NCBI GenBank assembly: GCA_012845835.1
Contig: JABAKD010000030.1
Span: forward strand, 14,231,076-14,295,075
Source of the DNA: Undaria pinnatifida
Taxonomy: Eukaryota; Sar; Phaeophyceae; Laminariales; Alariaceae
DNA length: 64,000 bases
Direction: 5' to 3'
Below the pieces are notes generated by a model. The model was given only the letters and a program-made list of their open reading frames with translations. It had not been told where the DNA came from and did no database searches. Numbering within the stretch: position 1 is the stretch's first letter; each line of letters starts with the position of its first letter. The translations under genes were made by a program, and so were the position numbers. Positions 6,161 to 64,000 of this stretch are shown piece after piece.

Positions 6161-6333
6161 TCATTTTTCATTTCCGTGCTTTCTAAATACGAGTGTTGAA
6201 ATTGTTTATGTAGTAGCCCCCCCCGTGACTGAGCTGGTAGGTGAGATATGACCACATGTATGTAGCCCGTTCCCGCCATGAGACCGCAGAGAATTGATTA
6301 CCTATGCTGCATGATTTGGCAATCGGGGGTATG

Positions 6334-6919: not shown

Positions 6920-7130
6920 GCAGAATATTATCCAAGTGTGAGAAAATATGTGTTTTGTACATACATAAGAAGTTTGACCAATCAGATCAATGCGGTAATT
7001 CATAGTTGCATGAGCGATAGCCTTGGGTACACCTGGCCCAGCTGTGTAGGCGACGACCTGCACGCGGAGCGCGTAGGGAAGCAGAGTCAGAGCTACAGGT
7101 CCAAGGTGAGATACAGACTAGTTTAAGTTC
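6920..7130 (+). repeat. Split direct repeat A1
   Basis: About 94% identical by eye to 12421-12630, from GCAGAATATTAT to GTTTAAGTTC. It ends 15 nt before the gag ATG. Confidence 0.9.
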
Positions 7131-7145
7131 GTGCACTCCCCGACG

Positions 7146-8615
7146 ATGGAAGAGTGCAAATCACCGGAGGCTGAGGCTGTCGTGGCTGCTGCTGTACGCG
7201 GTCCTAATCAGGCTGCCTCGGATGCTACGCGAGTCGAGGCAGAGGCTTATGCTGCTGTCGCTGCTGTGCAAGCTGGGTTCGACGCTCGCCGTGCCGAAGC
7301 TCTGGCTGCTGTGCAAGCTGAGTCCGAAGGTCGCCGTGCCGCAGCCGCTTCGGCTGCTGCTACTGCTGCGTCTGCCACCGCGGCACCATCTTTGCACAGC
7401 CTCAGTCCCGCTGTGTCCGAGGCTGCGGGGGTCACATCGGCTGAAGTGCTGCACTGGCAAGGACAGGTGTCTGACGATTTCGCTCGGATAGACGGAGACG
7501 TGAGTCGCCTCAAGTCGCCGATGGATCGACTGCTCGCCTCCTTCAAAACCTTGCAGAATGCGGTGGCTGGGGGCGCGTCAAAAGTCGAGAACGTCGAGGC
7601 CATGTTACAGCAGTTCATGGACAACTTTGCCGATCGGCAGCCGGCCCCGCGGGACAGTGAGGACGTGAGGGAGCGCCACGTCCAAAAGTCGCAATTAACC
7701 GACGACACGGCGCTCTGGAGAAAGATGGCGTCAAGAAAACATTGGGTGCTCCGCGGGCGCATACCTCCCAACATTGGCGACTCGGCGGCGGGTATCCAGT
7801 CCTTCGTAGGCGAGGCCGTCAACGTCACGACGTCAGTGGCTACCCAGCTCCGCGCGATCAGTGACTTTGACGTTCGTGCGTACGGGCCGCGGGCGGAAGG
7901 GATGGTCGACCACCTGCTGATGGTCGCTGACCGCCTTGATTCCTTGCGCCAGGCTCTTGTGGCGGTCCTGTCTGTTGGGTTTTCCCTCGACAGCGACGGC
8001 GACCGTCATTGCCGGGAGAGGGTGGCAACGATCGATGCCGCCTTCACGTCAGCGTCGGCCGACCTACGCCGGCACACCCTGAGAAATATGATCCTACTCT
8101 CTGGCCCCGCGGCGCGGGCTGTCATGAGCGAGATGGTAAACGACGATCTTCGCCTGTGGGTCAACGACCTCATGCGATTTGCACAGCAAGTCCGTCCGCC
8201 GATGGTGCCCCCTCCGTCCGACTTCACGTTCTCGATGCCGCCCGTGCCTTCGTTCAAGCGCACGAGCGCCTTTTGCTCTAGTGGGGGCGACGTTCTCAAG
8301 CTCGTCGAAGGATTGCACGTTCCCCGCGACAGCCAGGACAGGCCGTCCAAGAGAAAAAGCAACCCGGCCAGCCCCGGTACACCACGGAAAAAATCGCTGC
8401 CCAGTGCCGGCAGTTTGCTTCTCTGGGCCGATGCCGGTTCTCCAACTGCAAATTCTTGCATTCGGCTCCCCCGGCCGACGCCACTTCACCCGATGCCCTT
8501 CGCGACAGTTGTTGGCAGTTCGGCGGTGCCGGCTGTTGGGTCGCGGGCGTTGGCGCTGCGCTCAGAGCCCCGCGGTGGGTCCGGGGGTGGTAGTGGCGGC
8601 GCGGGTTCTGGATGA
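7146..8615 (+). CDS. gag: Gag-like ORF1 of the Ngaro/DIRS-like element
   Basis: The ATG at 7146 follows repeat A1 and an in-frame TAG. The ~489-codon product starts with an Ala/Glu/Arg-rich region (residues ~10-85) with several EAxAxxAA patterns likely to be helical. A second helical block around SRLKSPMDRLLASFKTLQNA follows, then a globular middle. The C-terminus in this frame is low complexity. In the +2 frame, 8405-8461 encodes a CCCH zinc finger, CRQFASLGRCRFSNCKFLH (C-x8-C-x4-C-x3-H). The undamaged protein therefore probably ended with that finger, and a frameshift lies near 8330. I assign gag by position and composition only. Confidence 0.6.
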   Translation: MEECKSPEAEAVVAAAVRGPNQAASDATRVEAEAYAAVAAVQAGFDARRAEALAAVQAESEGRRAAAASAAATAASATAAPSLHSLSPAVSEAAGVTSAEVLHWQGQVSDDFARIDGDVSRLKSPMDRLLASFKTLQNAVAGGASKVENVEAMLQQFMDNFADRQPAPRDSEDVRERHVQKSQLTDDTALWRKMASRKHWVLRGRIPPNIGDSAAGIQSFVGEAVNVTTSVATQLRAISDFDVRAYGPRAEGMVDHLLMVADRLDSLRQALVAVLSVGFSLDSDGDRHCRERVATIDAAFTSASADLRRHTLRNMILLSGPAARAVMSEMVNDDLRLWVNDLMRFAQQVRPPMVPPPSDFTFSMPPVPSFKRTSAFCSSGGDVLKLVEGLHVPRDSQDRPSKRKSNPASPGTPRKKSLPSAGSLLLWADAGSPTANSCIRLPRPTPLHPMPFATVVGSSAVPAVGSRALALRSEPRGGSGGGSGGAGSG

Positions 8616-18971: not shown

Positions 18972-20327
18972 ATGGGAGAGTCCACAAAAGCAGGTGATGC
19001 GGTAGACAAGCTCGTTAGAGCCCTCAACGGCAAATTTAATGGCCTTAAGTTCGACGTATGGAAACGCACGGCTCAGTCCGTGATAAGTATGCGTCATACC
19101 GGGATCTCTGATATCCTAGAAGGGCGTCCTTGCCCCGAGCCCGAACTAATTAGTCCTCGTTCATCTCATAGAAAAAGTAGGTCTTCACGAGCTGTAACTC
19201 GCAGCCAGGCCGCTGACGAAACGGAGACTCAGTCCGGGGAAACACCCCCAGCTGACACAGCAGAAAATGTACAGCCAGACGCAGGGAGTACTCCCGTGGA
19301 CATGGCGCGTCTGCTACCATCATCCTCAGGATATTCTACAGTCCCAGCCGCAACATCAGTTTTATGGGCCACGGATGACAACATCTCGAATTCAGAAGAC
19401 ATCAAGCACTAGCACCGCAACAACCGTCTTCTCTTCGACTTCTTGTTCCTGAGTACATCAGGAGCTGCGGCAAGCCTTCTTCTACAATTCAAGCCCAAAC
19501 GAGGTGAACTTGCGAATGGAAAGGCTGCTTGGGATGGTATGGTTAGAAAATATCAAAGTTCCACCCGCCAATGTAGACGTATGCTCACACAACAACTAAC
19601 GCATATGGCCATGACGGATGGGCAAGACCCAGACGTGTTCATAAACGAAGTATACTATTTACTGGATGGATTGGTGGACATGGGAGAGGTATTCAACGAT
19701 GACAGCATATTGGACATAGTGCTGGAAGGACTCACGGATGAATACCTGCAAATAAAATATAGCGCCGAAGCAGATGATGACTTCACACTCGACCGAGCTG
19801 TGGATGAATACCTGCAAATAAAACATAGCGCCGAAGCAGATGATGACTTTACACTCGACCGAGGTATGATAACAATGCGTAATAGGTACGCGAATAGAGC
19901 TATGCGAAACGGGCCTTTGTGAAACGCGAAGGGGCGTGAATCTGCTATGGTAGTCACGTCAACATCCTCAGCAGTAGTGACCTCTTCACACTGCAAAAAG
20001 CTAGGCCATCGATTTCAAAATTGCTTTAAACGCAAGGGAAAAATGGCGGGGAAGAAACCTCCCCCGACACCTCGAAATAATTCGTGGTGTAGCCTGCATA
20101 ATACCGATCGCCACGATAATAGCGACTGTCGGTCTTAAATGCGGGACGACGATATAACCCGTCGCCCTCGTCCTGGTCAACAAAATGGCCGGCATAATAA
20201 CAGCCGCAGCGCTCACGCCAACACCGCCACAACTCCAACTTCAACAACGCAAATGGAAGCTTACGTCCCAGTGACACATGCTCCATCCACTACTGCGGCT
20301 GCGACTACAGCGGCTACTTCTACGTAG
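18972..20327 (+). pseudogene. gag: Copia gag (UBN2-type) with stop codons
   Basis: One reading frame of about 452 codons runs from ACCATGG (ATG 18972) to 20327. Only three stops interrupt it (ending 19412, 19922, 20138), with no frameshift. Domains: an N-terminal capsid-like part; a UBN2-like core with LFDFLFLSTSG and QDPDVFINEVYYLLDGLVDMGE; an incomplete zinc knuckle CKKLGHRFQNC (first Cys replaced); and a second Cys/His cluster WCSLHNTDRHDNSDC. The 22-residue segment DEYLQIKYSAEADDDFTLDR + AV is tandemly duplicated at 19737-19865. It would form the particle shell. Confidence 0.85.
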
Positions 20328-22890: not shown

Positions 22891-24911
22891 TTTATTGTGT
22901 ACCAGGTATAATATATACCGGACCGGTATGAGTTCGGTATAATAGTGGAAGCGTCTGGGACCTGGTTTTGGGATGTTTTGCTTTTTCGGCATGGTCCGAC
23001 AGGTAGGAGTTGAACGTGTGTAATGTATGTGCCTGAAATATGCCGGAAAACTCTGGACAGCAGGAGGAGCTTTCGAATGGGCCTACTTATATTAGAAGGA
23101 GCTCACTGTGAAGGTGAAGCTCAACATGTTGTGTGTTGAACATGGCCAGGCACTTATTTATTAATAGCACAAAAGTCACCAAACTTAAACAACCACATAA
23201 TTTAATATATAGTACTTGTCATGTAGTATGACAAGGGATATTCATATTATTTATATATTTTTTGCCCTCCGACAATATAATAGCGTAGATGCCGTTCCGA
23301 TGTAAATCGAACACCCTTCCGTAAAGCAGCAGTAGTACCTATCTCTGAAGTCGAATGATCGCGCCATAAAGCAATGGTATCTTCTTGGTATCCTCAATGA
23401 ATGGCGGTGTTAGGACCGTTTTGATTAAATTAAACCCAGGGTCGGTCCCAGATGCTTACACTATGCATCATGCGGTCTACAATTAAGCTGCACGATGAGT
23501 ATCGACCCTAAATTCATCGAACTCACAGCTGACGACGTGTTTAGACAGTTTTTCTCAAAATACTACCACACCAAATAGTACCACCCGGCCATACACGATA
23601 TCGCCGTAGTACCAACCTCCTCAGTCTTCATTTTTATCGTGAGAAAGATATAACCCCTTTCTTCTTCGTTCATCGACTCGCGCCCACCCTACGCGCAACT
23701 CAGATCCGGGGTCATTACTGTTCGCGGACTCTTTTCTTCCCTCCCCATTACGGGTGGCAGTACGAGCCTTCGTTTTTGTCGCGAGAATGGGACAGAGTAG
23801 TATTTGTTTTCTTCCCTCGCCGACTTGTCGCGTCCCGAATTTCTCCCACGTTTCCACTCGGAACGTATCTCTTTTCTTCTTCCCTCGCCGACTTGTCGTG
23901 TGTGTGTCGAATTTATCCCACGCTGCCACACGGTAACAATAAATAAAGTAGTTCCGACTATTAAACATCAATCGGTCGAACTCCCAGTCGACGAATTTAC
24001 TTATTCTGTACCAGCAATATGGCGAGATGCCGGGAGGTGTGAGGGAAGGGACGCAAGGGTGTCAGCTTCGCTTGGAGACAGCACCGGTTCTTCTTCTCGT
24101 AGATTTCTTATTACTGGCGTTGAGCTATGAGAAGCTCGAGGAGACGGGAAAGCTGGAGTGAGACCTTGGCGGCCGGGAGGGGAGGGGGGCTCACAGAGTT
24201 CGGGCTTCTCCCCAGCATTGCTGCTGTGCTCTCTTCTGGACCTTTTTCTATGGAACGTGCGTAGAACGTTCCCCTAGATGTTCTTTTTCTTATTGGCGCT
24301 TGAAGCGCTTGCAGCTACGTTGTCCAGAGGTATTCTAACTTTTGCGCTGTGGCGCTTATGGCGCTTACGTCTATCTATCTTGTCCAGAGGAAGATTGCTC
24401 TATCACCGAGAGCACTCTTCTTGTGATATAAGCTAGCTAGATTCTATGGGATATCTTCTCCACTCAGAATATTCCGTTCAAGAGAATATTCTTTTGACCG
24501 ATAGACCAAAACTTTGCGGTGGCTCTCTTTCCGAACCTATTGTCATCTGTATTGACACTCTATTACATTTGCCCACCCTGAATAATAGTCGTATATGCAG
24601 ACCTCAAGACGGTCGAAGGGTGATGACAAAGTTCATCCTAAAGTACCGTGAAAGGGGGTTGAAGATGCGGCTATTCGGAACAAAGATATGAGGTTATGGA
24701 TTCCCCCACACCTCGTAATGAGGCCTAAACGCCACCGATAGGACCATTCACTAATAAAGCAGATCGCTGAAAGAAACACCATAACAAGATAGAAGAAGAC
24801 AAGCTAGAGGAAGACCGAAAACCCAGAATAGGGCAACCTAAGCATAGCAGCCGAGCTCTTGCTTCGGTTGCCCCCCTCCCCAACCCTCTCCACGAACCCA
24901 TTATCGCTGAC

Positions 24912-25460
24912 ATGTACGGCTACAGCCGCGACCGCGGCCACTCCAGCCTAATCGCACCCGCCCCGCTCTCCCCCCCCCACGCACCCCTCAGTGCCTGCGA
25001 CCTTGCGGGCACAGCCGCTGCAGGTCGCGCCAACCCATACGTCCGCCGTGACGCCTGGGACCACTACATTCCAGCTACCGTCGCCGGCCCAGCCGGTTAC
25101 CACAACCTACCACGTGCTACCGCCTGCCCTGCCCTTGCCCCCCCTTACTCGCTTGGCATCCTCACGACCGATGGTTTTACCGCGCGGGGCCATTGATTGG
25201 GATTTCAGCGATGCCAGACACCGCTGCATGCAGAGTACACGCGGAACAGCTTTCTCTGATGTGTCACCGGCGCCACACCGCCTGTCGGGCTTGTTCACCC
25301 CCGATAGCGACCCATCGGTCGCGTTCGTCCAGGTCCGTGCCGCCGCCGCTAGTTTATTCGACAAGGTTATCGATTCCTTGGAAAGAGGGCGCATTTTCTC
25401 TATCTGGCGCTCCGGCGGTGGTGTGACGTCGTCGAGGGTGACGTCGTCGAGGGTGGCCTG
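24912..25460 (+). other. GC-rich ORF cluster, unrecognised
   Basis: Two overlapping plus-strand frames (94 and ~150 codons) of Pro/Ala-rich sequence. The only order seen is SLFDKVIDSLERGRIFSIWR near 25360 and a 15-bp duplicated GACGTCGTCGAGGGT at 25427-25456. No domain recognised; coding status doubtful. Confidence 0.2.
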
Positions 25461-25924
25461 GTAGGGGCGGAAGCTGTGAGTACGTATGTTGTGAGGTCCG
25501 CGGGTAGGTGCTTGGGGATGTCGCTGGTGTCGTCGGGGTTGTGACAGGGCTTGCATCGTTTGACGGAGACGCGTGGCTTAGAGCCTCGTCCTGGAAGGCC
25601 TGAAGGAAGATCGAGGAAGAGCAGCTTGTGCTGTAGGGGGTGGTTGTCGGGGGTGTCGGAGTAGCCGCGGTCGCTGCTGTAGCCGCGTATTACGGTGAGA
25701 GTGGGTTCGTGGAGAGCGTTGGGGAGGGGGGCAACCTGAGCAAGAGCTCAGTAGATGGACTTACAAAACAAAGCCCTGCGGGGTTTGAGAATTTTAGTAT
25801 GAGATCGTTATTTCGTCATATTCCTTTTTGCTTGCCTTGGCACTCTACGATTATATGACATAGTAATATGTAACTCTGGATTAGCAAAAACAATGGACTA
25901 CGAGCCGACACACACCGTTGATCA

Positions 25925-26625
25925 TTCAGTATTATTAGGATAAGAGCTTCCATCTGTAGGAGCGCAGGGGCCTGGCGTTTTGGATCCACGCTTTAGTTTC
26001 TGTATTCCCTCTGGTAGTGTGTGAGATGGGCGTTCGAAGAGCTTCAGGGTCAAATGCGCACCGCCCGACGCCTGATGTCAAACGCCAGATCTCACTCGTC
26101 GGCCTTCATTCGATCAATACAGGTGTGTGAGCGTGCGTTTTCATTACATCAAGAGCAGAAGAGAGATCACTTCGGAACTGTAGCGATCGACGTCCACCGC
26201 ATGTTCCATCATGACTCGACAGCACTAACAACACGAGCATCAGGCCTGGGCTGGACCTCCGCTGGCCTGCCACATGTTTTATACAGGGAGTACACAGGAA
26301 CTTGCGTACAAACCCAGTAGACACAAGTAGTCCACTCCAAAAGTAAACTCACACTATAACACTTATTGTTTCATGCATACTGAATTCCACAGATGTCTGT
26401 TTTTGTGCCTCTCAGTGCGGGTTATACAGTTTCCATGCGCTGAGCAAGGTTGAACGTTTTAGTCCTGTTGACCCTGGCGTTCGCAGGGGAGTCACCGACC
26501 TGTATACTCCACGAGGGTATACACACCCGGTAACACGCGCGATCGAAGTATCACACGCAACTTGCAAAGCTGAGTTTTGATCACAAAACCTTTTTGGTCG
26601 ATCTCACAGCTAAAGTGTAATTTTT
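25925..26625 (+). repeat. Repeat family D joined to family A end, copy 1
   Basis: CTGTAGGAGCGCAGGGGCCTG through CACAGATGTCTG, then a diverged family A terminal module. Matches 42125-42935 in direct orientation. Confidence 0.88.
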
Positions 26626-27057
26626 TATTTTTTAAATATCTAGTCTAACCATTAGGAACGGAGAAATAATCCCATACATTTTCAACTATATTGATAAAAT
26701 AAACTCAACTATATAAACATATATAAAATCATTCCTTGAATATAGAGCCATTCCTTGGTGTCATGGACTTTGGTCCGGAGTTTTTTGTCTCGGCCTAAGT
26801 ATGCGATTCGCGGAACTGGAATTCTCGGTCGAATATGGCTTGGTTCGAGCGCCGCCTTCGGAGGCGGCTCCAACGCCCCTCGCCCTGCCGTGTCCGTTCC
26901 GCACATCGACGTGAACGCGGACGGGCGCCGAGCGAGACGAGCGAGTGTCGAGGAGGAATTTTGGAAAAATTGTTGAATCTTAATGGCTGCAACGCCTGAA
27001 TGATTTACAAAATAGGCATCATTTCCAAACGGTATGTGCTAATGTTTGGAATTTTGC

Positions 27058-29257: not shown

Positions 29258-30425
29258 CGCGAGTCGACGAGGGAAGAACATGCTGGATTCTCCTGGCGGT
29301 AAAAATGAAAGCACGTGCCGAAGTGGGGAGGGAGGAGGAGGGCCCGCTATTGACCCCGGATCTGAGTTACTACTGGGAGGGAGCGCGAGAGTGGTGCGGG
29401 GATAATAAATGGGATGAAGAAAAAAAATGTTGCAAAGGTATATTATTATTACTACCAGTAAATAATAAGTCAGTCTCTAGGAAATACGCACGGCACTATC
29501 AGCAGTCGTCATGGTAGAGACACTCCGGATATTATGCATTGAGGGGACGCGTCCAATTTCGACAACGTGAAAGCCCCCACGAAGAAAAGACAGCAGACAC
29601 ACATACCCCGCCTTCCCGAGAAAAAACAGAGAAGAAGCGCTACGCCAACCTCCCGTACGAGCAAAGCCACCCGCGCACCAATCTTAGACAACGCCGCCTC
29701 AACGAGAGATCGCCCTCCTCTTCTACGTTTTCCTCCTCGCCCGCGACCACGCAGACCAATCAATGCAACAGCCTTCACGTAACAAACAAAGCAATCTTCT
29801 TCCAAAACCTCGCCGGCTGACATGTATGTCCTCATGTCGACGTTTGATGCAAACCGACTTTGCATCCTGTCGACTTCGAACCTCCATTGAGCAGTGCAGT
29901 CTCTTCATTAATGCCAAGGCCTCTTTTGTTCGCCTAGAGGCGACGCAGGTTCTCAATAATACTCTTTTCGGTATTTTTGTTTGATAGACGCCAACCTTTA
30001 CTTGACGGCGCATTAAATAGTTTGTTTCGCCTATCCTTGCCTTCTTTATTGTATAATATTACGTTTTTTCTTTTGTCAAAGCATGACTTTCAGAATCCCA
30101 TGTTCGTATGAAACTCTTGGCATTACTTTAAAGTTCAATGCATGCCAAATCGGACAGCTACACCTTAAGTGGTCGAAGTGCTGCCCTGCCCTACCCGAAG
30201 CACTTGTAGTCTATATTATCTAGCCCCAACCCTTTTTCTTTTTTCTTATTTTTTTTTGTTCATCCCATTTATCATCCTCGCATTACTCTCGCGCTCCCTC
30301 CCAGTAGTAGCTCAGATCCGGGGTCACATAGCGGGCCCTCCTGCCCCCTCCCCACTACGGTACATACGTTCTTTTTTATCGCGAAAATAATTCAACATTT
30401 TCTTCCCTCGTCGATTCGCGTCAAA
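29258..30425. repeat. Inverted repeat pair around an 800-bp core
   Basis: Arms 29258-29445 and 30236-30425 are inverted copies (TCGACGAGGGAAGAA...GACCCCGGATCTGAG...GGGAGCGCGAGAG). A third relative lies at 23630-23930. The core has a 93-codon ORF with no recognisable domain. It could be a DNA element with long inverted ends; no target duplication was identified. Confidence 0.7.
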
Positions 30426-30814
30426 TTGAACGCTGTAACCCCCCAAAAAGGCTAGATTGATTGTAATAGCAGAGTAGACTGTAATGATACTTGACACCTG
30501 ACACTGCTGTGTCACGCAAAGCATGACGTGCACCGTTATGCTTGCCCTTGAGTTTGCATATGCCCAAAACTGTATGCAATACACCGGTATGTATGTCGTA
30601 TGTATGTCGTACACACAGCAGCAGCAATATCATACAATTTGTTTGTTTTGCCAAACAAAGCTCTCTCGTGATGAGTTTCATTAAAACAAACACATAATGA
30701 CGAACTGCCTCTTGGGCACCCGACATACGGCAGTAGACATCTCATATGATTCACGGAGTTAAAGACTTTGTGCACATATAGTATAAAACATGAAAAATAC
30801 CGTCCTCCATCTGT

Positions 30815-31110
30815 GAGATCGAAGATTTCGTCGACGCTCATCTTTGCAAGCTGTGTGTGATACTCCGATCGCGTGTATTGCTGGGTGTGTCCACATCAAG
30901 GACATACAGTAGGTCGGCGACCCCGCTTGGAGCTACGGGGCAGCTTGTACGAGGGTAAACGGGGTGGTGTTAATCAATCTGTGCGCGGGAACCATGAAAC
31001 CCGTTTTTGATGGGGACAAAATCTGACGGCTGTGTAATGCACCAGTTTACTATGTATATCCTGTGGTCGTATGACCGGTTGAGGAGAGGGGAGCGGGTAT
31101 AGGGGGGATA
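30815..31110 (-). repeat. Family A copy, reverse orientation
   Basis: Reverse complement of the terminal module (GTGAGATCGAAGATTTCGTC at left), followed by TCTGTGCGCGGGAACC and ATCTGACGGCTGTG. Confidence 0.85.
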
Positions 31111-31540
31111 GGTCGCATAAACGAATAGGAGCTTACTGCACGCGTAATGCTAGTAGGTGATGGTGGGGGCGGCGGGGAAGGGGGGGGGTGTTATGTTGAG
31201 GTACGGCCTGGGAGGCCAGTACTTACCTCAAGGGTAATTGGCAGTTTTGGTATTTAATGGGATGGCGTTCTGTATTTGGGATCATCGTAAAATGAGACAG
31301 ACAGGGCCCTCCCAACCAGATGCTGTCCGGGCTCTGGAAAAATAAATGTGCTTCTTCTTCGTACTACCTCTTCGGAGGCTATCAAAGTGAAAGTGACTAA
31401 TCACCAAGGACTAGCTAAATAGACAAACCTGCCCGAGGATACTCTGTGTCTTCGCCCTATTTATTAATAAATTGCGTCGTAGGCATGAATTCGTCATTTT
31501 CTAGTCTGGATCGGACCTCCTCTATTTCTCCGGCGATTTA

Positions 31541-34019
31541 TTGCGGCGTTGCAGTCCATTCCATCGAGGCAAAGTCTCTGTTTTCCCCTCGGATAGCATC
31601 TCACGCCACCGTCTGTCGGGGAGCGACGCCGAGCGGGCACAGAACTCTGAGCAGGAGGCGTCCGTGGCGGCAGAGAGGGCGGAGCAAGCCCTCGCTCAAG
31701 CAGTTGCATCAGCTGCGGCGGGAGCTACCGCGGCCCCCTCGCCTTCGGCGCGCCAGCAGGGCGTTGCCTCCCGGAAAAAACGGCCCGGGGACGACGCCTT
31801 TTTCAAGGACACCGTCGAGTGCATGGCCTCTGAGCCGAGGGTAGAGTTTCCTTCGAAGTTAGCGGCCGCGGTTGTGGAAACGGCCTCCGCCCTCCTCGCT
31901 CCATTTAAGAAGGTGTCGCTGTATGACGCAGGGCCTGGGATAGCAAGGATAATACCACCTATCCCGGGCAGAAGAGAGCCGCCCCAACTCTTGCCCTCAT
32001 GAAGGCCCTTCGAATGGCTCACGACGAGGCTCACGACCCCGTCTTGTGGCCGACTCCGGGGAAGAAGTTGGAGGAACGCAGCCGTGGGAAAACGCGACGC
32101 GTCGAAAGTCGCGATTGCAGAGACCGCCACCGTGGGGGTGGTGGCTCCGGGGGTGGCGGTGGCCAAGCTGGGGATGGAGGCAAAAGCGATGAGAGTGGCG
32201 ACCACCATCACCGCCTCGGAGGCGGCAGCGGTAGTGGAGGCGGAGGAGGCGTATCGGGTGTTTGTGGTGGCTCAGGATGCCGCCAAGAGAGAAATCATGG
32301 TCGCAACAATCGGGCGGCGGTCGCAGCTCTGGGGGAGCACCATCACTGCCTCGGAGGCGGCAGCGGTGGTGGAGGCGGAGGAGGCGTATCGGGTGTTTGT
32401 GGTGGCTCAGGACGCCGCCAAGGAAGAGATCATGGTCGCAACAATCGGGCGGCGGTCGCAGCTCTGGGGGAGGCAACGGAGGGCGGAGGAACGGCGCGAG
32501 AGGGCGTTCATCGTGTGACGGCTCCCGCTCGTCTTCGGCCTCAAGCACGGACCACGGGAAGGTGACCGTGGTAGCGGGCAACAGGCAAGTGACTCCTTCC
32601 ACCTAGGGGGTATTGCTTCCTCCGCCGAGCGCCTGAGCAAACTGACTGTGTCGGGTGATCACACTACACCTGTTTCTTTGGATTTGGCCCGCGCTCGTGC
32701 CTCCGCGATTGCCACTGCCGCTGCTACAGCCAGAGCCACGCGCGATGATTCGGTTAAGCGTGCCTATGTCAAGTTTCCCCACAAAGACGTAGCCCGCATT
32801 TCTCTGACTACCGCTCCCCACTTCTTTTGAACAAGTCTGACGGCGTGCAGCAACTCACACGCTCGGTTAGATCTGCAATGTCCGGCATTCTCATGCGCTA
32901 TAACGACCGTTGTACAGAGGACGCAAGATCGCCCACGTGGGTGCCCGGCTGGGACCACCCGCTCCACATGGCGTTCACACGTGCTGTAACGCTTGACAAG
33001 CCCACGACCGCCCGCATGACGACCTTGATCGCCGATTGTTTGGGCAGGTGTCGCGAGCCATGGCAGGGGGAGCATATGGGCCTGTGGCCTTCACCCACCT
33101 GTTGCGCCTGCTGATGCCGCACTTCGACCTGGTCGACACGGGGGAGGGCTGTACCAAATTGCATACTTTTGAAGTGTGAAATGGCACGCCCTTTGTCATT
33201 TCAGTCGGAAGTTTCGCGTACTAGTATCAACAGTTAGGGGGAGCGAGCGTGTCTTGTCTCCGGGGCCGGATGTGGTATTGGAGGTGGTTCGGATGGTGGT
33301 GAATGAGCAGTTTTCGACTCTTATGCCTACGTGTGTACCCTGGTTCGAAAGTAACGGACCCGAGACCATACGTCTCGTTGGGTGCTATGTGGAGGGCTTT
33401 TAGTGACTTGGCTCATAACAAGACACCTGCAGCCAACGGCGAAAAAAACTTTTATCCGCCTGTTTCTTCGACGGCAGCGCGGTCACCCGCCCCGGCGGGG
33501 CCCCGGCCGGCAGATCATGGGCGCGACCAGGGCCAAGTGCCGTCCCAGTCACTTTCATAGAAGACGGGATCGAGCCATAATCCAATTGTCATGCCCATCA
33601 ATGATTCATCTGACCCTTGGCTTGACCAGACATCAAGCTGCTGGCCACTAGAATAACACCAGTATGCAGAAGTTTTCGCCGTCAGTGCCTCGTTTAAGAC
33701 CGACGACCCTCCCTTTTGAAGCGGACATATTTCACTCTTCGCTCGCGCTGATGCCCTCCGAGAAAACCCTGGGCTTTGCCTCAACTGCCACGACGACAAC
33801 CACTCCTTCAAGCATTGTAGGCATCAGAATGCGAACGGCCGTTTAAACCCTGAACTTGACCAACTTGGTGACAATGACGCATACCGACGTTGGCAAGCGT
33901 GCATGATCTGCTACCGCCGAGACGGCAAACCTCCTCGCCCGAAAAACAACAAGAAATATCATCGCCATCATTCAGGTCAATTGCGAGGGTACCACCGGAA
34001 TCAGGGCCAGGTAAACTGA
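31541..34019 (+). pseudogene. gag: Ty3/Gypsy gag, broken
   Basis: The N-terminal part (31541-32002) is an Ala/Glu-rich coiled coil (EQEASVAAERAEQALAQAVA). A perfect 135-bp, 45-residue tandem duplication follows (32201-32470). The nucleocapsid end at 33777-33818 is a classical CCHC knuckle, CLNCHDDNHSFKHC, followed by RRDGKPPRPKNNKK and a stop at 34017. The pieces lie in different frames, with stops at 32000 and 32516 and further shifts between 32830 and 33780. Nucleic-acid packaging is the expected role. Confidence 0.72.
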
Positions 34020-34377
34020 GGGCCAGGTAAACTGTCATAACGATAGCACATACACGTCGGACCCCCATGGTGGTATCCCGCGCTCGCCTGCCTCTTCTGC
34101 CCCCGCCCCTGCTCTCGGAATGCGCTTCGGAGCCGCCCATAACCGGGGTGGAAATCGTACCGCGCGCCAGCCTGGCACATTCCGTACCGGCAATTGACAG
34201 CTCGACGGCGGTACGACACACCCAGCCTGTGCGTCAGCGGCACTGCTGGGGACACCTCTTCTGGTTTCACAAGATTATCGTGTACCTGTTGCTAGCCTGT
34301 TCAATAACGCAGCACACATTGCCCCTGTTAAGAACTCACGGGTTCCTACGCCGTCTGTTGACGATTCCCACGGCGTA

Positions 34378-34600
34378 GTGTCGGCGGCGGGAACCAGCGC
34401 TTCGAGCGTGGTTCCCCTAAGGCAGGCTATTTTTTCGACGACGAGAACGCACGCTCCCAACGCCGTTCCCCTCGGTCATGGTCTGAGTTCGGCGACGGGA
34501 ACCCTCGCTTCCATCACCGTTCCCTTCAGCCACGGCATAAATTCGGCAATGGGGGTACGCGTTCCAAGCGCCGCACCCATCAACCATGGCGCGAGAGCTT
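34378..34600 (+). repeat. 54-bp in-frame tandem repeat
   Basis: Four 54-bp units, phased at 34411, 34465, 34519 and 34573, encode 18-residue repeats of the type SATGTLASITVPFSHGIN. It lies between gag and the NADAR region in an otherwise open frame (34378-34956). Confidence 0.85.
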
Positions 34601-34846
34601 GCGTTTTGCGCGCTCGCCCCAGGCATGTGTCCCGCAGCCATAAGGCTGCGGTGACGGCGCGTCGCCTTTTTAGGCGAACGTGTTCACCCCCCCCCCTCCC
34701 TGACCATGTGATGGCGGTCGGTTTGAGGTATGGGACAGCCGACCCGGAAACACTTTTTCCTGACCACGAGGTGGCGGTCGGTTTCGGGTGTGGGAAGGCC
34801 AACACTAAAACACCGAGGACTGACTCCACGATAGCCCCCCCAAAAA

Positions 34847-35070
34847 AACAGCGATTTTCTTCAACGAACGTTTCATGGCTGCTCGACGCGAGGGAGGGTG
34901 CTACAAAAAAATATCTTCATACATCATTTTGTTTGCAAAGGACTATACAACAATGACATCGGGGTGGCAAGGGGCACCGTAATTCAGGAGATACGACCGG
35001 GAGCTGATTTTGAAACCGGCGATTTTGTTCAAGAAAAGTTGGGGGGGCTACAGTAGAACAACTCTGAAAT
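34847..35070 (+). pseudogene. Fragment of unknown small protein, copy 1
   Basis: Encodes PPKKQRFSSTNVSWLLDARE, then after an interrupting stretch IGVARGTVIQEIRPGADFET and GDFVQEKLGGLQ. The two halves reappear separately at 39258-39345 and 38812-38910. I do not recognise the family. The basic start and short helical segment could be a DNA-binding module, but that is a guess. Confidence 0.45.
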
Positions 35071-35215
35071 ATTTTGCGAGGCTCGATCCGGTGTTTGTTC
35101 GCGATATCAGCGGGTGCTCTATCCTTTTTTCAATCAAGAACGAGTCAACAAGATTGGTAACCTCGTCTCCCTTCTCCAAGGGGCCTAACGGAAAATAGCC
35201 TTCTCGGGTGGAATT

Positions 35216-36266
35216 TTGTTGCCACCTGCCCAAGATCCGCTCCTGAAAACGCCCACAGGCTCTACGGGTCCTGATTCGTCTTCTAGCACGCTAAGCCACG
35301 TGCATCAGGCCACGTCTGCCCCAGTGGTACAGGAAGGAGATCCGACACTGCGCGACGGGCCAGTGGCGACGCCACGGCCTCCAGCCCTATCAACTAGACG
35401 TTATTTCCGTACAATTACGGGAGAATCGCGCCTCTCGTCAAGCAGAAACAATTCAGAACCCGATGCCCCTTCGGGCGCAGTTAGAGCAGTTTCTTGCGGT
35501 TTTGCGCCAACAAGCGAAGGGGCCACGACGCAAGAAACCGAGGGATCGGACTCGCGTCGTGCTCCCGAGACCTGGTGTTCCCGCAAGGGGACACCACAGG
35601 CCCAAAGTGCCGAGGCCTGGTGTTCTCGGACGGGGACATTGCAGGCCCAAAATTTCTCCAACACGGCTTTTGACCCTTCTTTCGAGTACTCCACAGACAG
35701 AGTGGTGTTGTTCTGCCAGCCCTCATTCTTTTCACAGTGGTTTCCTTCGTCATTTGTCGCGGACGGCGTGTCATATTCTTGCCCGGAGCAGTATATGGTG
35801 GCCGAAGGGGCCCGGCTTTTTAAAAACCGTCTAGCAGTGAAGCTCATCAAGTCGTCGCCTGACCCAAGCACACATAAACGCATCGCTCGAGGCGTGCGCA
35901 TCTTTGACTCTGCTGTTTGAGACAGGGAGAAGCAAAGCGTCGTGTTATCTGGCACTTACGCCGAATTCAGGCAGAATTCAGCCATGAAAAATCACCTTTT
36001 GAGCACCGGCAACAAGCTTCTGACTGAAGCCAGTCCTCTAGACCCAGTGTGGGGCATTGGCCTCCGGGCGGATGATCTCAGGGCCAACAGCCCATGCCAG
36101 TGGAGAGGGAAACATTTGCTCGGGTGAGGCATTTTATGCCGTTCGCGCAGAAACTCGCGAAAGTGAAATTGGGTTGACGCATCCGACCCCCCCTAGTTGG
36201 TTCCGCACTTGCACTGCGAATGCAGAAACCCAAGAATTTTTGTCGGCGCCGCGACCGGGCCGCTAG
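35216..36266 (+). pseudogene. NADAR-domain protein within Gypsy element
   Basis: A Ser/Thr-rich leader is followed by a NADAR domain: FFSQWFPSSFVADG, YSCPEQYMVAEGARLF, GTYAEFRQNSAMKNHLLSTG, LLTEASPLDPVWGIGLRADD and WRGKHLLG/EAFYAVR. These match the family signatures for the Glu of EQY, the EASP-D-WGIG loop and the W-GK-LLG helix. NADAR proteins (YbiA/RibX, and the NADARs paired with DarT) hydrolyse N-glycosidic bonds of riboflavin intermediates or remove ADP-ribose from guanine. A TGA at 35918 sits where the family has a conserved Trp, and a frameshift at ~36118 falls inside LLG-EA. No ATG supports the start; it may be a polyprotein segment. Confidence 0.85.
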
Positions 36267-36289
36267 CAGCGGCCAGCGCCCGCACAGAT

Positions 36290-36809
36290 CCTCCTTCGGA
36301 GTTTTCGACCTACTTCTCGGACGCGCTGACCGACTCGAAACGCCGTGAAGTCTTGGAGATAGCTTTTTTGGCGCCGGCCCTGAGCTTGCGCTGTCAGAAC
36401 ACGGCCCCTGTCTCGTCGGGGGTACTGGGACGCTGGACGACTTTTCGTTTACTATCAAAGTCGCTTGTATCAGTCGAGCAACGCTCGACTCGGAGAGACA
36501 TTGGACTTCTCTTGATTTGGAGGCCGGAAGCATTGTTTGGGCTCTCAAACGCCTCCGAGGATACTTTGGGGAACGTGATTCCGCACATTTTCCGGCCACA
36601 AGACACTACCAGGTAGAGAGCGTTGGCAAAGTGGGGACCTACAATGCACGAGTCCAGCGGTAGCTTGAGTTCGTCACCGCGTTCGATTACACATCGAGTA
36701 CCGCAAAGGCAGCGCCAACTGCAACGCCGATTTTCTGACTCGCTTGCCAGAGCTTGCCACGGAGCATGACCGCAGTGGCTTGACAAGCTTTAACCCCGTG
36801 GATTGACAA
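36290..36809 (+). pseudogene. pol: Ty3/Gypsy RNase H
   Basis: In one frame LDLEAGSIVWALKRLRGYFG (Gypsy RNase H core), then SVGKVGTYNARVQR, a TAG, and LEFVTAFDYT. After a frameshift, IEYRKGSANCNADFLTRLPE, the usual end of the Gypsy RNase H domain. It degrades template RNA in the hybrid. The RT palm that should precede it is missing; the NADAR frame lies there instead. Confidence 0.82.
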
Positions 36810-36887
36810 GCCTCAACCGCGTTGAAGATAGCGGTATTTACCTCATACGGATCTGTGGGCTGCACACTCCCTCTTCGCCGATCCCAG

Positions 36888-37055
36888 GGGTCGGTTTGGG
36901 TGGGCTCGTGCCCCGCACCGAAAGCACTGCCTTGGGTGGGCTCGTATCCCGCACCGAAAGCACCGCCTTAGGTGGGCCCGCACCCCACGCCCCTCGCCGA
37001 AAGCATTGTCTTGGCTGGGCTCGTGCCCCGCACTGAACATGCTGCCTGGGGTGGG
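36888..37055 (+). repeat. 36-bp tandem repeat in Gypsy polyprotein
   Basis: GGTGGGCTCGTGCCCCGCAC-type units of about 36 bp, four to five imperfect copies. They encode GLVPRTESTALG-like dodecapeptides downstream of RNase H. Confidence 0.8.
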
Positions 37056-37699
37056 ATCCCCCTCACCTCTACCGAATTTCACGATTTTCGCACACAAAAG
37101 CCACGTATGTGGATTAACAGCCTTTCTGCTTCCCCTGGGGAACTCGTAGCTCATGTTCACCGCCGAAGGCTGTACCAGCCGCGGGTCGGTTTCGCCTGCC
37201 GCTGAAACACCGTTTTCGCTTCGGATTTTGCCATACCCATTGAGGGCGGCACGCGCTCCGCAGAAGCTCTGGCTGCAGCGACGACTGTCGCACAGTTGAC
37301 TCCTCTATCAAGGAGTTTCACACAGAAGACGGACTCCGCCGCAACCACCGGTTCGACCGTGTCCGCCTCTGCCTCGCTTGGCACTCCAGCGCCTCCGTCT
37401 GCGACACCGCCTTCGAACCGCATCTCAATTTGGACGCGTCGAGAACAGCGAAAGCAACCGGTAATACACCCCCCGCTGTAGATTAAGGCTTCGGGCTCGA
37501 CGGGGCCCCTCGACCATCTACCCGGCGTGTCAACACCCGCCATAAATCCCACGACCGCGGCAGACCCCGTCGACCGCCGCGACCCCTGCTCCTACCGCCT
37601 CTCCGGTCCCCACGGTTCCATTTCCGTCCGTCCGTGACCGCTCAGAGCCTATTGGGACTTCTATATTACGATTTCCGCCAACTCTTGGCGACAACCCAA

Positions 37700-38540
37700 C
37701 TGCACCTACACAGTTAAACGCCCTCGACAACGTCGATGAACTGCAGTTCGCTGATTCCGTCGCGCGAGTTTCGCCTGCCGACTGGAAGGAAGAACATCAC
37801 GCTGAGCGGACATGCCATGCCGTTGTGCGCTGCATCACTATCGGCCGGCCGCCGGCCCTGCCACTCGACTTCTTGTTGTGTTGCCCCTCGCACATGTGTC
37901 TTCGCAAAAGCGTCCCCCCCCTTTCGGACACCCAGGAGCTGGCAAATAAAGGTCGCCTACCTATAACCGACGACGACTCGTCTGTAACCCGCGGCGACTT
38001 CATCATGGTGCTAGACAAGACGCATTGGATGGGACTCTCTGAACGATCCTCGGAGCGGGACATGGACCTCCAACACTCTCGAAACCACATTGTACGTTAT
38101 TGGGCCGGCACCCCGGACCAACCGCGCCAAACCAACCGACTCTGCCGCCGAATGCGCGTTGGTGCGGCACAACGTGATCTTTCTCGGAACAAAGGCGAAC
38201 ATGTTGGCGCCCAGCTACGCTCCCGCCACGCGCACAGAGTGAATTAACCGCCTCCGCGACACAGTACTCCCTAAGGGAGCCCACATTTGGTACAAGGACG
38301 ACGATGGGTTGTGGTGGCTTGGGAAAATCAGCGCAATTGCAACCAAAAGCGGGGTATATCTGGTCCGAGGTTTGGACGACCCGAGGCCGATTGAACTTCT
38401 TCCCTCTCCGGCGCGCTACATGACTTCGACGGGGATCGTACGAGGCTCTTGGTATCTTCAGGTCCAAGTCGACAGCGCCTTCCCGCGGGGGATCCAACGT
38501 AGCGTAGATGAACCTCGAGGCGCGGCCGTGACTAGTTGAC
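37700..38540 (+). pseudogene. pol: Gypsy polyprotein C-terminal region, integrase deleted
   Basis: Segments SVARVSPADWKEEH, ELANKGRLPITDDD, DKTHWMGLSERSSERDMDLQ, RYWAGTPDQPRQTNRL and WWLGKISAIATKSGVYLVRG resemble the regions before and after the integrase in brown-algal Gypsy polyproteins as I remember them. The HHCC and DDE integrase blocks that should lie between ITDDD and DKTHW are absent, so an internal deletion near 37980-38010 is inferred. Several frameshifts are present. Confidence 0.6.
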
Positions 38541-38811
38541 TTTCAAGCCGCCGCAGCACCTCGATAGTTTTCCTTTTTTTTTCTTGGTTATGAGGTTTGG
38601 AGTTCTTATCCTTGGGTTGTTTGTGTTGTTTCGAGCGTTTGGATAGGATGTGGGGCGATTCTTACATTTTTTTAGTCCCTCCCCCTTGCTCAGTACCGGG
38701 CCAAGGTCTGGGTAATCAGGACTATCGGTTTTTCTGTTCGTTAAAATTCACCCTGCCGAGGCCCTACACCTTCGCATATAGTTTCTTGTTTGCAATAGAG
38801 TATCAAACGAT

Positions 38812-39345
38812 GAGGTCAGGGTGGCAAGAGGCACAGTGTACCAGGAGATACGGCCGGGAGCTGGTTTTAAAACCGGCCGTTTCGTTAAATAAATGTTGGG
38901 GGGGCTACCGCAGAACGACTCTTGTGTCGCATTTGGTCTACTTTTTTCGGCTAGACACTTCTGCCCCTCGAGGGGCTGTTGGTAGTGTCGCCTTCCGTTT
39001 AGGGTATTTGTTGTTTCCTCATCCCCCCCCTACGCCGTGCCGGTGGTCTGCGGGAGGTAATTGGCATGACTTCCCCTTGTCTTGGCGCCTGTGTTTCCCT
39101 TCTATTCGCGTTTCTTCGTCTCGCCCCCTCCCACCACGCTGACGGTACGCGGGAGGCTTTCGACGATGGTCCCCCCGGCGACCTGGGTACCCTGTTCACT
39201 CGTAACGTGGCACGGGACTGTGTGTTATTTATCTATTCATTTGTGTCTAATTCTACGATGCCCCCCTCCAAAAAACAGCGATTTTCTTTGACGAACGTTG
39301 CATGGCTGCTTAACACGAGCAAGGATGCTGTGAATAACGGAATAA
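38812..39345 (+). pseudogene. Fragments of the same unknown protein, order swapped
   Basis: 38812-38910 encodes GVARGTVYQEIRPGAGFKTG and RFVK followed by a stop. 39258-39345 encodes MPPSKKQRFSLTNVAWLLNT and SKDAVNNGI. Relative to 34847-35070, the C-terminal half comes first. The sequence between carries no recognisable gene. Confidence 0.45.
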
Positions 39346-41165: not shown

Positions 41166-42124
41166 TTATCTTGAGTTTTGATCTCCTCCCCGGCCCCCCT
41201 CTCCCCGCGCGACGCGGTGCGCGGCTGTGTATGGTGTAAAATGAGCGTCATAGGTAGCCAGCCCTTACCTGTAACAATATACGAAGCATGTATCAGTTTG
41301 ACGTTTGCTGTAGTAGTTTGTGGTAACTTGCTGCGCTGAGTGAGGCTGTAGGGTGCTGGCTGTGCTGTGCCCTGATATTTCGAGCAGTACATATAATCCG
41401 GTATAGGCTGGTTGTAGCTAGTATATTATTTCGACCTTGGCCACTCAACCACCTGGAATCCACGTATTCGAAATAGTCTAGTACCCAGTACGGTATTCAG
41501 CAAGATCTGCAGACTGATTGATGGCTGAGAGATGGCTTGATGTTTGATTTGAAACATGTGAACTTGATATGACTTGCGGAAAAACGAACAGAAAATCAAT
41601 GTTCTAAAATATATGTAGGAAAACCCGTACGTACCTCTGATGGTAAACGACACCAGGTGTATACACTTCAAAGTCCTTTTTGGTCGATCTCACAAACCTG
41701 AAGTGTACTTTTTTTTTTAAATACACCAAGCGCTCAGTGCTTGGCCCCACGTGGTAGCCTGAATGACCAGATAAAACTAATGGCCAATAATAATGGCTCA
41801 CGCTTTTGGTGATGCCAGTTCTTACACGTCGGCTCTTTGGACGTTTCGACCCATCCGGGTGATCCTTGTTTGTTGCTGTCCCAATTCCATTCATATTGTA
41901 ACAGTTTTCTTCAATTATGATGGAGGAAGTCGTTCCGTGTTTTTAACGGCATGAATCTCACGAGGTGAAATCGGAAATTCCGACTTTCCCCAACGACTAT
42001 ACAGATGAGCTAAATTTTGTGGCCTGCGGGTGCTCTACCCAGAAATGACCATGGAGACGTTCTCAAAAAGCAAAATAGCAACATCAATCAGCAACGAGGC
42101 GACATGCACCTCCGATCACTATGT

Positions 42125-42935
42125 ATTAGTGAAAGAGCTTTCATCTGTAGGAGTGCAGGGGTCTGGCGTTTTGGATCCACGCTTTAGTTTGTGTGTTCCC
42201 TGGTAGTGTGTGAGATGGGCGTTCGAAGAGCTTTAGGATCAAGTGTGCACCGCCCGGCGCATGATGCAGAACGCCAGATCTCACTCGCCGCCCTTTATGC
42301 GATCAATGCAGGTGTGTGAGTGTGCCTTTGCAATACATCAAGAGCAGAAGAGAGATCACTTCGGAACGGTAGCGATCGACGTCCACCGTATGTTACATCA
42401 TGACTCGACAGCATTAACAACCCGAGCATCAGGCCTGGGCTGGATCTCCGCTCGCCTGTATATACAGGGAGTACACAGGAACTTGGGAACAAACCCGGTA
42501 GACCCAAGAAGCTCACTCCAAAAGCTAACTCACACTAACAATTGCTTTATGCATACTGAATTCCACAGATGTCTGGGTGTGTCCTCCTCAGTGCGGGTTA
42601 TTGTTAAGAGGGGCTCTGGTGGAATCGAATAAAGCTACGTCTCTGCGAAAGCTCAGAAATTGAGTACTTTCCGAGGGCCTGTTCAATTGGCATACCTGCA
42701 GGGGACTCTCTGTGCCCCCGCCCAATACTCCATTACTTGTATACAGTTTTTGTGCGCAGAACAAGGTTGAATGTCTTAGTCCTGTTGACCCTGGCATTGG
42801 CAGGGATTCACCGACCTGTATCCTTCACGACGGTATGCACACCCCGTAACACGCGCGATCGAAGTATCACACGCAGCTTGCAAAGCTGAGTTTTGATCCA
42901 AAAAAATTAGTCGATCTCACAGCTCAATCAAGTAT
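42125..42935 (+). repeat. Repeat family D, copy 2, with a 138-bp insertion
   Basis: Same order as 25925-26625. Extra bases 42602-42739 sit between TAT at 42599-42601 and TAT at 42740-42742, where the other copy is uninterrupted. Confidence 0.85.
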
Positions 42936-43969
42936 ATGTTTTCGTTTTTCAAATATATACAGCAATGCGGTTCACAATAACTAGAAAAATGGTGCCATCT
43001 ACCGGTCGGTGCGCACGAAGGATTAAGCGATGTCTGCGCCCCCCCCCCCCCCCCCCCCCGCTGCCAGGGCGGTGAAAACCCGACATGTTTCGTCCCGCTA
43101 TGGTAGGGATGCGAGGATCAATATTCCTATTGATACTGGTGCTTGGTTCCCGAAAAAAAGGCTCCGGTATGATGTGGTCTGGGTATACGGTTGTTGAATT
43201 TGATATTCCGACTTTGCTACGGTCTTGGTATGCGGTTGGTTGTTCAATTTGATATTCTGGTGTGTGATATGGTCTTGGTATGGGGTCTCGAATTTGGGGT
43301 TCCAGCATGATATGGTCTTGGCATGTGGTTCTTGAGTTTAAGATTCTGGTATAAGGTACCTGGTGGTACGGTTTTCGGTTGTGGTTCTTGAACATAATGT
43401 TATGGTATGATATGGTATTCTTGCTGTGTGGTTATTGAATTTGATATTACTTCTGGTATGCCAAAAGCTATTTTTGGAATTGATGGGGTGCGCAGTGAAG
43501 AAAAAAACGGTTGCAACGGCATTTCACTGCATACGCTGTGATTGGTTGGCATTCTAAAGGTTGTGTTGAATGAACAGTGAAAGAGGGCACCGATTGCGAC
43601 GGAATTTCACTGCATACGCTTTGGTTGGCATTTAATTGGGACGAAAGGGTGAACAGTGAACTAGGAGAAGACCGGTTACAGCGTCCTTGCACTGTAGAAG
43701 CAATGGGTATGCCACCACATCTCGGCGTGCTGTTTCCTGGACGTGCCTCCTCTTGCTCGCCCCTCCCGACTCTGACGGGAGCGGCCTCGGCCGTTCTTGC
43801 CTCGTGTCGTTACAGCCCCTGCAAAAATACTGATTTTTGCCAAGCTTCTGTTGTGTAGTGACCTGATTTTGAGCTTCTGTTGCGTAGTGACCTGCTTTCG
43901 GGATCTGGCGATTTCAATTTGTGACTCACCATGGGTACTTCGAAAGATGATTTGTGATCTTGTGCACCT

Positions 43970-62699: not shown

Positions 62700-63930
62700 C
62701 CCCCCCTCCCCCAGTTATTATTGTTTGTCGAGCGTCAGAAACAAAAGCCCCCCGCCCCCTATCTTGGTTTGTATATTATCGTGTAAATAATGGTGTGTTT
62801 TATCGTGAGAGCACCCCGGTGCAGCCGGCCACGGTTTTATTATTTTTAAATAGGAGTGCAGGGTGTTGGCCGTCGAGCATCAGAAACGAACCCCCCCCCT
62901 TCTCTATTTTTCAAATCCTGCCTGACGAAGCAGTGGAGGGTGTAACTTTGGGGTTTGTCGTGAGAGTACCACGGTGTAGATTGCCCCCTTCTTTTTTGTT
63001 TGAATAGGGGCGCAGGGAGTTATTTGTCCATCATCCGTAACGAACCCATCCCCCGCTCTCGTTTTTTCCCTCCCAGTCTGGTGGAGCAGGGGAGGGTGTA
63101 ATTTTGTGGCTTATCGTGAGAGTACCACGGTGCAGCTGGCACCCGTTTCTTTATTATAGGAGTCCAGGGTATTGGTTTTGGTCCCCCCCCCCCCCCCCCC
63201 GCCGTTTTCTTCCTCCCAGTCCGGTCAAGCGGTGGAGGGTGTAATTTTGTGGTCTATCGTGAGAGTACCACGGTGCAGCTGGCCCCGGTTTTTTTTGTTT
63301 TGAAGAGGAGTCCAGGGTATTGGTCGTCGATCGTCGGAAACAAAGCCCACCCCTCTCGTTTTTTCCTCCCTGTCTGGTCAAGCAGTAGAGGGTGTAATTT
63401 TGTGCTTTATCGGGATAGTAGCGCGGTGCAGCTGGCGCCCCCCTTTTTTTTTAAGAGGAGTCCAGGGTATTGGTTGTCGATCCCCGTCCCCCCCCACCCC
63501 GTTTTGTTCCTCCCAGTCTGGTCAAGCAGTGCAGGGTGTATTTTTGCGGTTTATCGTGATAGTACCACGGTGCAGCTGACGCCCCCCCGCTTTTTTTTCA
63601 AGAGGAGTCCAGGGTATTGGTTGTTGATCCCCCCCCCTCCTCCCAATTTTTTCCCCTGTCTGGTTAAGCAGTGGAGGGTGTAATTTTGTGGTTTATCGTG
63701 AGAGTACGCCGGTGCAGCTGCCTTCCCCTTTTTGTATATATAGCAATTCAAGGTATTGGTTGTCGATCGTCCGAAACGAAGCCCCCCCTTCCATTTTTTT
63801 CTTTTCAGTCAGATGAAGCAGTGGAGGGTGTAAGTTTTTTTTTTTTCGTCAGAGTACCCTGGTGCAGCTGGCCCGATTTTTTTTCAATAAGAGTGCGAGG
63901 TTTTGTTTGTCCATCGTCAGAAACGTAGCC
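62700..63930. repeat. ~150-bp satellite array at right edge
   Basis: Eight monomers are marked by GGTG(C/T)AG at 62820, 62975, 63131, 63274, 63427, 63571, 63713 and 63863. Spacing is 142-156. Each contains GGAGGGTGTAATTTTGTGG, GAGAGTACCACGGTGCAGCT, a T-tract, GGAGTCCAGGGTATTGGT and a C-tract. T- and C-tract length changes account for most spacing variation. The array continues toward the window end. Confidence 0.92.
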
Positions 63931-64000
63931 CCCCCTCCCCTACCATTTCCCTCCGCGGGTCCATGGTCATACGACTTCGACCATGCACGATTTCAACCCC

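Follow-up and report, generated by a model that had tools for sequence, protein, structure and literature searches.

The window analysed here, a stretch of 64,000 nucleotides from the brown alga Undaria pinnatifida, raises the question of how a NADAR domain came to stand inside a Ty3/Gypsy retrotransposon, and of what such a domain might do in the element. We consider it very probable that the feature is a decayed, non-autonomous Ty3/Gypsy copy, related to autonomous elements in which Pol begins with a NADAR domain of the YbiA type. The anatomy and the descent of the element, as read from sequence comparison and set out below, appear close to certain, and its biochemical role is discussed separately.

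The NADAR Domain and the RNase H of the Window Copy

The presence of a NADAR domain, recognized in an earlier note from the letters alone, is confirmed by the Pfam profile PF08719, which matched the forward strand at 35723-36127 over profile positions 11-153 of 163, with an E value of 8.6e-30 and a score of 104.6 bits when the stops were read as X, against a curated cut-off of 35.1. Each of the two open pieces of the domain was also matched alone (E 2.4e-8 and 3.8e-16). The domain is broken, given that it contains one internal in-frame TGA (35918-35920) and ends at a second (36125-36127). At the active site, Lys50 is replaced by Gly and the position of Trp89 is occupied by a stop, with E43 and the Glu of the last strand both being kept, and the domain retains 74% amino acid identity with that of an intact copy.

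A Gypsy-type RNase H, represented by its C-terminal two thirds, lies on the forward strand at 36460-36678, in a frame different from that of the NADAR (RT_RNaseH, profile positions 33-103 of 105). This match is below the cut-off of 24.8 bits in the long frame (E 2.1e-4, 21.8 bits) and above it when the open piece is taken alone (E 1.2e-5, 25.8 bits). Pfam, run at E 0.1 on all three forward frames of 20001-48002 and on the reverse frames of 30001-39002, matched no models other than those of the NADAR and the RNase H, and recovered no RT, integrase, or gag.

Anatomy of the Window Copy

An intact copy from the same genome (L009/L010) was used as the reference for the collinearity of the window, through tblastn and blastn, and the two are collinear along L009 except for two deletions and a number of inserts. 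The features of the window copy are as follows:

31655-34194, forward strand: putative gag region, degenerate, collinear with the open reading frames upstream of the L009 pol, with no Pfam gag match
about 32586-33045, forward strand: extra stretch in the gag region, absent from the intact copy (comparison with L009)
34198-34745, forward strand: N-terminal part of pol, 51% amino acid identity to residues 1-182 of the L009 pol
34746-35065, forward strand: insertion of about 320 bp in pol, seen as a gap in the collinear L009 match
35066-36454, forward strand: pol linker and NADAR, 75.8% nucleotide identity to L009 3732-5131
36454/36461, forward strand: first deletion joint, 2088 bp of the L009 pol (5132-7219) gone, including all of RVT_1
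36461-36919, forward strand: C-terminal part of the RNase H (RT_RNaseH, 36460-36678) and subsequent pol, tblastn to L009 pol2
37035-37978, forward strand: pol from the RNase H to the integrase, tblastn to residues 1-320 of L009 pol3
37978-37990, forward strand: second deletion joint, about 1457 bp gone, including Integrase_H2C2 and rve
37990-39125, forward strand: C-terminal tail of pol and 3' untranslated part, broken at about 38715-38922, 68% nucleotide identity to L010 48-1124, and matching residues 672-786 of L011 pol3
42611-42727, forward strand: LTR-like fragment, 82% to L010 1603-1716 (the 267-bp LTR of the intact copy)

Both the RT and the integrase core of Ty3/Gypsy have been deleted from the window copy, which is therefore a non-autonomous derivative. 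The earlier note had placed the NADAR between the Gypsy gag and the RNase H of the same strand, "where RT should be". The RNase H part of this description stands; the gag is missed by Pfam and supported by the collinearity of 31745-34194 with the ORFs upstream of pol in an intact copy, and the putative gag is recognized as such by its position and homology alone. The RT is missing, as that wording implies, but the NADAR does not occupy its place, given that the NADAR of the intact copies lies upstream of the RT. The NADAR as a replacement of the RT was rejected, the RT having been lost through the 2088-bp deletion relative to the intact copy.

Partial copies of the 320-bp insertion are present at 38786-38922 and 39252-39329, and the pol tail corresponding to that of the window is weakly chromodomain-like in the intact copies. 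An LTR pair was not seen on the two sides of the window copy; the LTR-like fragment at 42611-42727 may be an unrelated insertion. One repeat is present twice in the window (42076-42959 and 25882-26642, 84-85% identity), with about 138 additional base pairs, similar to the Gypsy LTR, in the 42076-42959 copy at a point where the other is unbroken. The window also contains a Copia-type gag at 19413-19919 (Retrotran_gag_2, E 1.8e-10) and a tandem array at 62928-63936, in which a unit of approximately 142-150 bp is repeated 5-6 times and a 297-bp period can also be followed through much of the array.

Intact Copies in the Same Genome

The genome (511 Mb in 68 contigs) was searched with PF08719, and the best 150 of the 1454 candidates were scored, all 150 being above the cut-off. 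A hand count from the table of these matches found 38 of the 150 with no stop in the domain and an open frame of at least 1000 aa, including nine frames of 2473 aa and five of 2371 aa. In the Pol frame of L009, which is 2473 aa long, Pfam recovered the domains in the order NADAR, RVT_1, RT_RNaseH, Integrase_H2C2, and rve, and the NADAR of the intact copies is the N-terminal domain of Pol, upstream of the RT, RNase H, and integrase. In L011, the NADAR is followed by Integrase_H2C2 and rve (Pfam on two of the three pol pieces), and tblastn aligned its RT and RNase H, while in L013 the NADAR is found in an ORF of 313 aa and a later ORF contains RVT_1 and the RNase H, the scan of this copy having covered the RT/RNase H part. 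The NADAR of three intact copies scored 166.7-172.7 bits, against the PF08719 cut-off of 35.1.

Paired LTRs with TG..CA ends and a target-site duplication were found in three copies: C30:12054764-12070223, with 267-bp LTRs that are 100% identical and TATA on both flanks; C22:20725749-20741529, with 494-bp LTRs (99.8% identical) and a GTAT repeat; and C3:206031-221810, with 494-bp LTRs (98% identical) and a GTAG repeat. These 4-bp junction repeats were read by eye, with the start of the LTR being shifted three bases to TG for C22 and C3. The 5' LTR of the C25 copy (L011) was not found in the stretches examined, and no LTR pair was established for three further copies (L023-L028), although one pair of L027/L028 stretches aligned at 86%. 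The ORFs upstream of pol in the intact copies returned no Pfam match for gag or protease.

The C30:12054764-12070223 copy is flanked by arrays of units of approximately 830 bp (L017 1264-4199 and L010 1754-5001), which are 88-92% alike across the two sides. Tandem repeats with shifts of approximately 84 bp lie upstream of gag in the NADAR-Gypsy element (L017 6564-8000 and L023 3843-5152), and are common to two copies. Fragments of a second NADAR-Gypsy lineage are found in the window at 24028-25749, comprising an LTR-like stretch at 24028-24801 and a pol tail at 25406-25673, both on the reverse strand, and a gag-like stretch at 24835-25371 on the forward strand.

Selection on the NADAR Domain

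The NADAR part was compared by the NG86 method in 42 sequences, 37 of them distinct, and the 35 stop-free sequences provided 595 pairs. Of these pairs, which are not independent, 255 were binned, the remainder being outside the dS bins or the length limit. The median omega was 0.37 at a dS of 0.02-0.1 (n = 96), 0.50 at 0.1-0.3 (n = 118), 0.37 at 0.3-0.7 (n = 11), and 0.19 at 0.7-1.5 (n = 30). Some close stop-free pairs have values of 0.65-0.95 (L068-L069, 0.95; L049-L057, 0.76), because decaying copies are included, and the deep pairs have values of 0.17 (L035-L066), 0.25 (L035-window), and 0.35 (L049-L067).

The comparison of L009 with the window returned an omega of 0.295 for the NADAR, and of 0.66 and 0.72 for two parts of pol upstream from it. 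In the pair L009-L014, omega was 0.40 for the NADAR, 0.14 for the RT, 0.15 for the RNase H, and 0.63 for the upstream linker. The NADAR, RT plus RNase H, and linker had values of 0.30, 0.25, and 1.4 (few changes), respectively, in L011-L013, and of 0.56, 0.38, and 0.76 in L011-L015. In the near pairs, then, the NADAR (0.30-0.56) exceeds the RT/RNase H (0.14-0.38), and these comparisons indicate that the NADAR is more constrained than the linkers and less constrained than the RT. Purifying selection acts on the NADAR of the autonomous lineages, and the domain is in frame with pol in the intact copies, which upholds the proposal that the domain is part of the element.

Between the two autonomous lineages, the NADAR is 45% identical (L035-L049). 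In the comparison of L009 with L011, where dS is saturated, dN was 0.525 for the NADAR and 0.162 for the RT, a difference of approximately threefold. This faster change of the NADAR between the lineages could reflect either a weaker constraint or a swap of the domain.

The Family of Copies Without RT

The window copy has a sister, L016, on the opposite strand at 52 kb past the end of the window, with 91.5% identity over 5.8 kb. Both deletions, the insert of about 320 bp, through which the match continues, and the internal TGA are common to the two copies. A query with 35100-36800 of the window returned 127 match rows from the best 40 of 1280 candidates and, once the window itself and its sister (94%) are set aside, most places had a best row that began at approximately 35470 or 35610 and continued to 36800, lacking the 2.1 kb of the RT, at 79-84% identity. 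When 36080-36560 was used as the query, all 40 of the scored matches (the best 40 of 954), including the window and its sister, crossed the joint between the NADAR and the RNase H, and the other 38 were 82-83% identical to the window. As the ranking by score favors copies with no break across the query, the number of RT-less copies is given here, rather than their share.

The NADAR part was sampled in nine RT-less copies (L072-L076 and L157-L160), which share 80-84% identity with the window and, where compared, 83-95% with one another. All nine copies leave the NADAR frame through a frameshift or a stop, as read by eye, although L074 and L076 do so only close to the C-terminal end. Among the window and L072-L076, the first codon position has 315 pairwise differences, the second 316, and the third 299, and L157-L160 have a similar pattern. 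The comparison of the same RT-less copies with the intact L035, by contrast, revealed about twice as many differences at the third position. The flat pattern within the family, together with this excess of third-position differences, indicates that the NADAR was under selection on the line between these copies and the autonomous one, and has drifted inside the RT-less family. In the window copy and the sampled RT-less copies, the NADAR is a drifting relic.

Active Site

The active-site residues of the Phytophthora nicotianae NADAR, whose structure has been solved, as named in the available text of PMC11543638 and PMC11125620, were mapped by alignment onto the NADARs of the elements, with the chain number being inferred as the number in the papers plus 2, E43 being placed by its spacing from K50, and the last-strand Glu by its position. 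The tally was based on 30 distinct element rows from 40 copies, all chosen to be stop-free. Glu43 and Lys50 are each kept in 28 of the 30 rows, and the last-strand Glu in all 30, followed by Lys75 (27/30), Arg79 (30/30), Trp89 (27/30), Asp130 (28/30), and Trp133 (29/30). All 30 rows have Phe at the position of Tyr84, and either Lys or Arg at that of Arg93, while Asp86, another residue of the P. nicotianae site, is not conserved. As judged by this alignment, the NADAR of the autonomous copies keeps its catalytic residues.

Origin of the NADAR

A scan of bacteria confirmed 107 of 126 candidates, of which 80 loci were kept; the scan reaches close relatives only, and is made up of bacteria, with no eukaryotes. 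The closest of the 80 loci belong to Nannocystis and other Myxococcota or Planctomycetota, at 59-60% identity, whereas the best phage NADAR among those listed has 54% identity. These YbiA-like proteins of Nannocystis and the Planctomycetota are the products of bacterial genes outside any retroelement, unlike the NADAR of the elements. The two element lineages were placed, in a 90-row tree, within a single supported group that also contains 16 rows from myxobacteria and planctomycetes, but apart from one another, being united in 2% of 200 bootstrap trees. In a tree of 35 rows, with 26 hand-picked bacteria, a single clade of both lineages was not rejected (p-AU 0.354). The two trees are compatible with one capture of the NADAR or with several. 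When the C-terminal tail was used for a locus search of IMG/VR, nine pattern matches and no relative came back. Based on these sequence comparisons, the NADAR of the elements has a myxobacterial affinity. In Ectocarpus, the available text of PMC12477816 reports that matches to the NADAR outside the genus are almost exclusively bacterial.

Comparison with Known Elements

The earlier note knew of no description of this arrangement, although one has in fact been published: according to the accessible part of Dinatale et al. (2025; PMC12477816), a NADAR is found at the N terminus of Pol across a whole Gypsy lineage of Ectocarpus, for example in Gypsy-12_Ec32, and its involvement in the processing of the RNA intermediate was suggested. 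The NADAR in the Gypsy Pol is, for this reason, a known arrangement, to which the window copy adds one more, worn-out member. As far as the published description goes, the elements of Undaria are similar to the Gypsy-12_Ec32 lineage in carrying, toward the N terminus of Pol, a NADAR of the YbiA family whose relatives are mostly bacterial. A putative C-terminal chromodomain is described in the Ectocarpus lineage; the pol tails here have weak Chromo matches (E 0.023 in L010 and 0.096), both of which are below the cut-off. The Undaria genome is also larger (511 Mb, compared with 200.2 Mb in Ectocarpus), and has two lineages, with NADARs that are 45% identical, and a family of RT-less derivatives. 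No RT-less family or selection test was found in the available portion of PMC12477816, and what is added here comprises the two diverged NADAR lineages in a larger genome, the selection tests, the RT-less family, and the myxobacterial affinity.

The same paper, in its available part, describes Tx1 LINEs of Crassostrea gigas that are also retrotransposons with a YbiA-type NADAR, but these elements are non-LTR, and the domain is found in ORF1 rather than Pol. In positive-strand RNA viruses (for example, nidoviruses, hepe-like viruses, and picornaviruses), as described in the accessible text of PMC9503650, the NADAR is likewise part of the polymerase polyprotein, although the polymerase is an RNA-dependent RNA polymerase, and not an RT.

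Possible Roles of the NADAR in the Element

The NADARs of bacteria, phage, and P. nicotianae hydrolyze guanine-linked ADP-ribose on DNA substrates, according to the available text of PMC11543638 and PMC11125620. The NADAR of the autonomous element may likewise remove ADP-ribose, or a related ADP-ribosyl adduct, from guanine in the RNA or cDNA of the element, and its action during reverse transcription would undo a modification made by the host. This de-ADP-ribosylation of nucleic acids, in line with the protection suggested in the earlier note, is a plausible but tentative reading, to which we give slightly less than an even chance. The number of RT-less copies suggests that this family, to which the window copy belongs, would have been spread in trans by its autonomous relatives, and it would no longer need the NADAR. 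Counting against the overall reading are the omega values of up to 0.95 in some close pairs, the greater divergence of the NADAR than of the RT between the two lineages and its higher omega in the near pairs, the changes at Tyr84, Asp86, and Arg93, and the lack of Pfam matches for gag and protease.

It is rather unlikely, though still worth weighing, that the domain acts on small molecules, such as ADP-ribose derivatives, breakdown products of NAD, or riboflavin intermediates, and so counters host signaling or NAD depletion. Riboflavin intermediates are also cleaved by NADARs, and soluble ADP-ribose derivatives have been proposed as substrates of viral NADARs (PMC9503650, available text), while the active-site residues kept in the elements are compatible with small molecules and nucleic acids alike. 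The fusion in Pol with the RT and integrase would nevertheless be a better fit for a nucleic-acid substrate, and the same text favors macromolecular adducts for the NADARs of eukaryotic RNA viruses, which tend to be found in polyproteins with the polymerase.

Less likely again is a non-catalytic role in binding or structure, such as the reading of ADP-ribose at the chromatin or the packing of the particle. A reader of ADP-ribose would fit the targeting of elements whose tails are already weakly chromodomain-like, but the catalytic Glu and Lys, in 28 of the 30 rows, and the last-strand Glu, in all 30, argue against this role, in rows that were all chosen to be stop-free.

There is very little to recommend the view that the window NADAR is a working single-domain gene, the sole coding asset of an RT-less element. 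Its 74% amino acid identity to the intact copy and an omega of 0.25-0.30 against intact copies would be expected of such a gene, but it has two in-frame TGA codons and has lost the Lys and Trp of the active site. The flat codon positions among the RT-less copies, and the frame broken in nine of nine sampled (by eye, and only near the C-terminal end in L074 and L076), led to the rejection of the NADAR as an asset kept by this family. The insertion of an unrelated gene or pseudogene into a single Gypsy copy, a nested event that the earlier note had set against its own reading, is suggested by the different frames and the stops of the window NADAR and RNase H, but is effectively ruled out by the intact copies, which have the NADAR in frame at the same position, and by the collinear pol on either side.

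Under the preferred reading, in which the NADAR is a Pol domain of the autonomous elements, a more specific scenario can be offered as speculation, and is on balance improbable. The domain might be a fast-changing module of counter-defense, a captured bacterial ADP-ribose hydrolase that is diversified or swapped much faster than the RT. If so, the host would ADP-ribosylate the intermediates of reverse transcription, and the element would respond, while the RT-less parasites would lose the NADAR because they use it in trans.

A published oddity, functionally unexplained, is now found in a second genome, in young intact copies. As selection keeps the NADAR in these copies, whether it has a role in retrotransposition can be asked more sharply, and the genome itself provides a natural contrast between the autonomous lineages, where the enzyme is retained, and the RT-less family, where the NADAR drifts.
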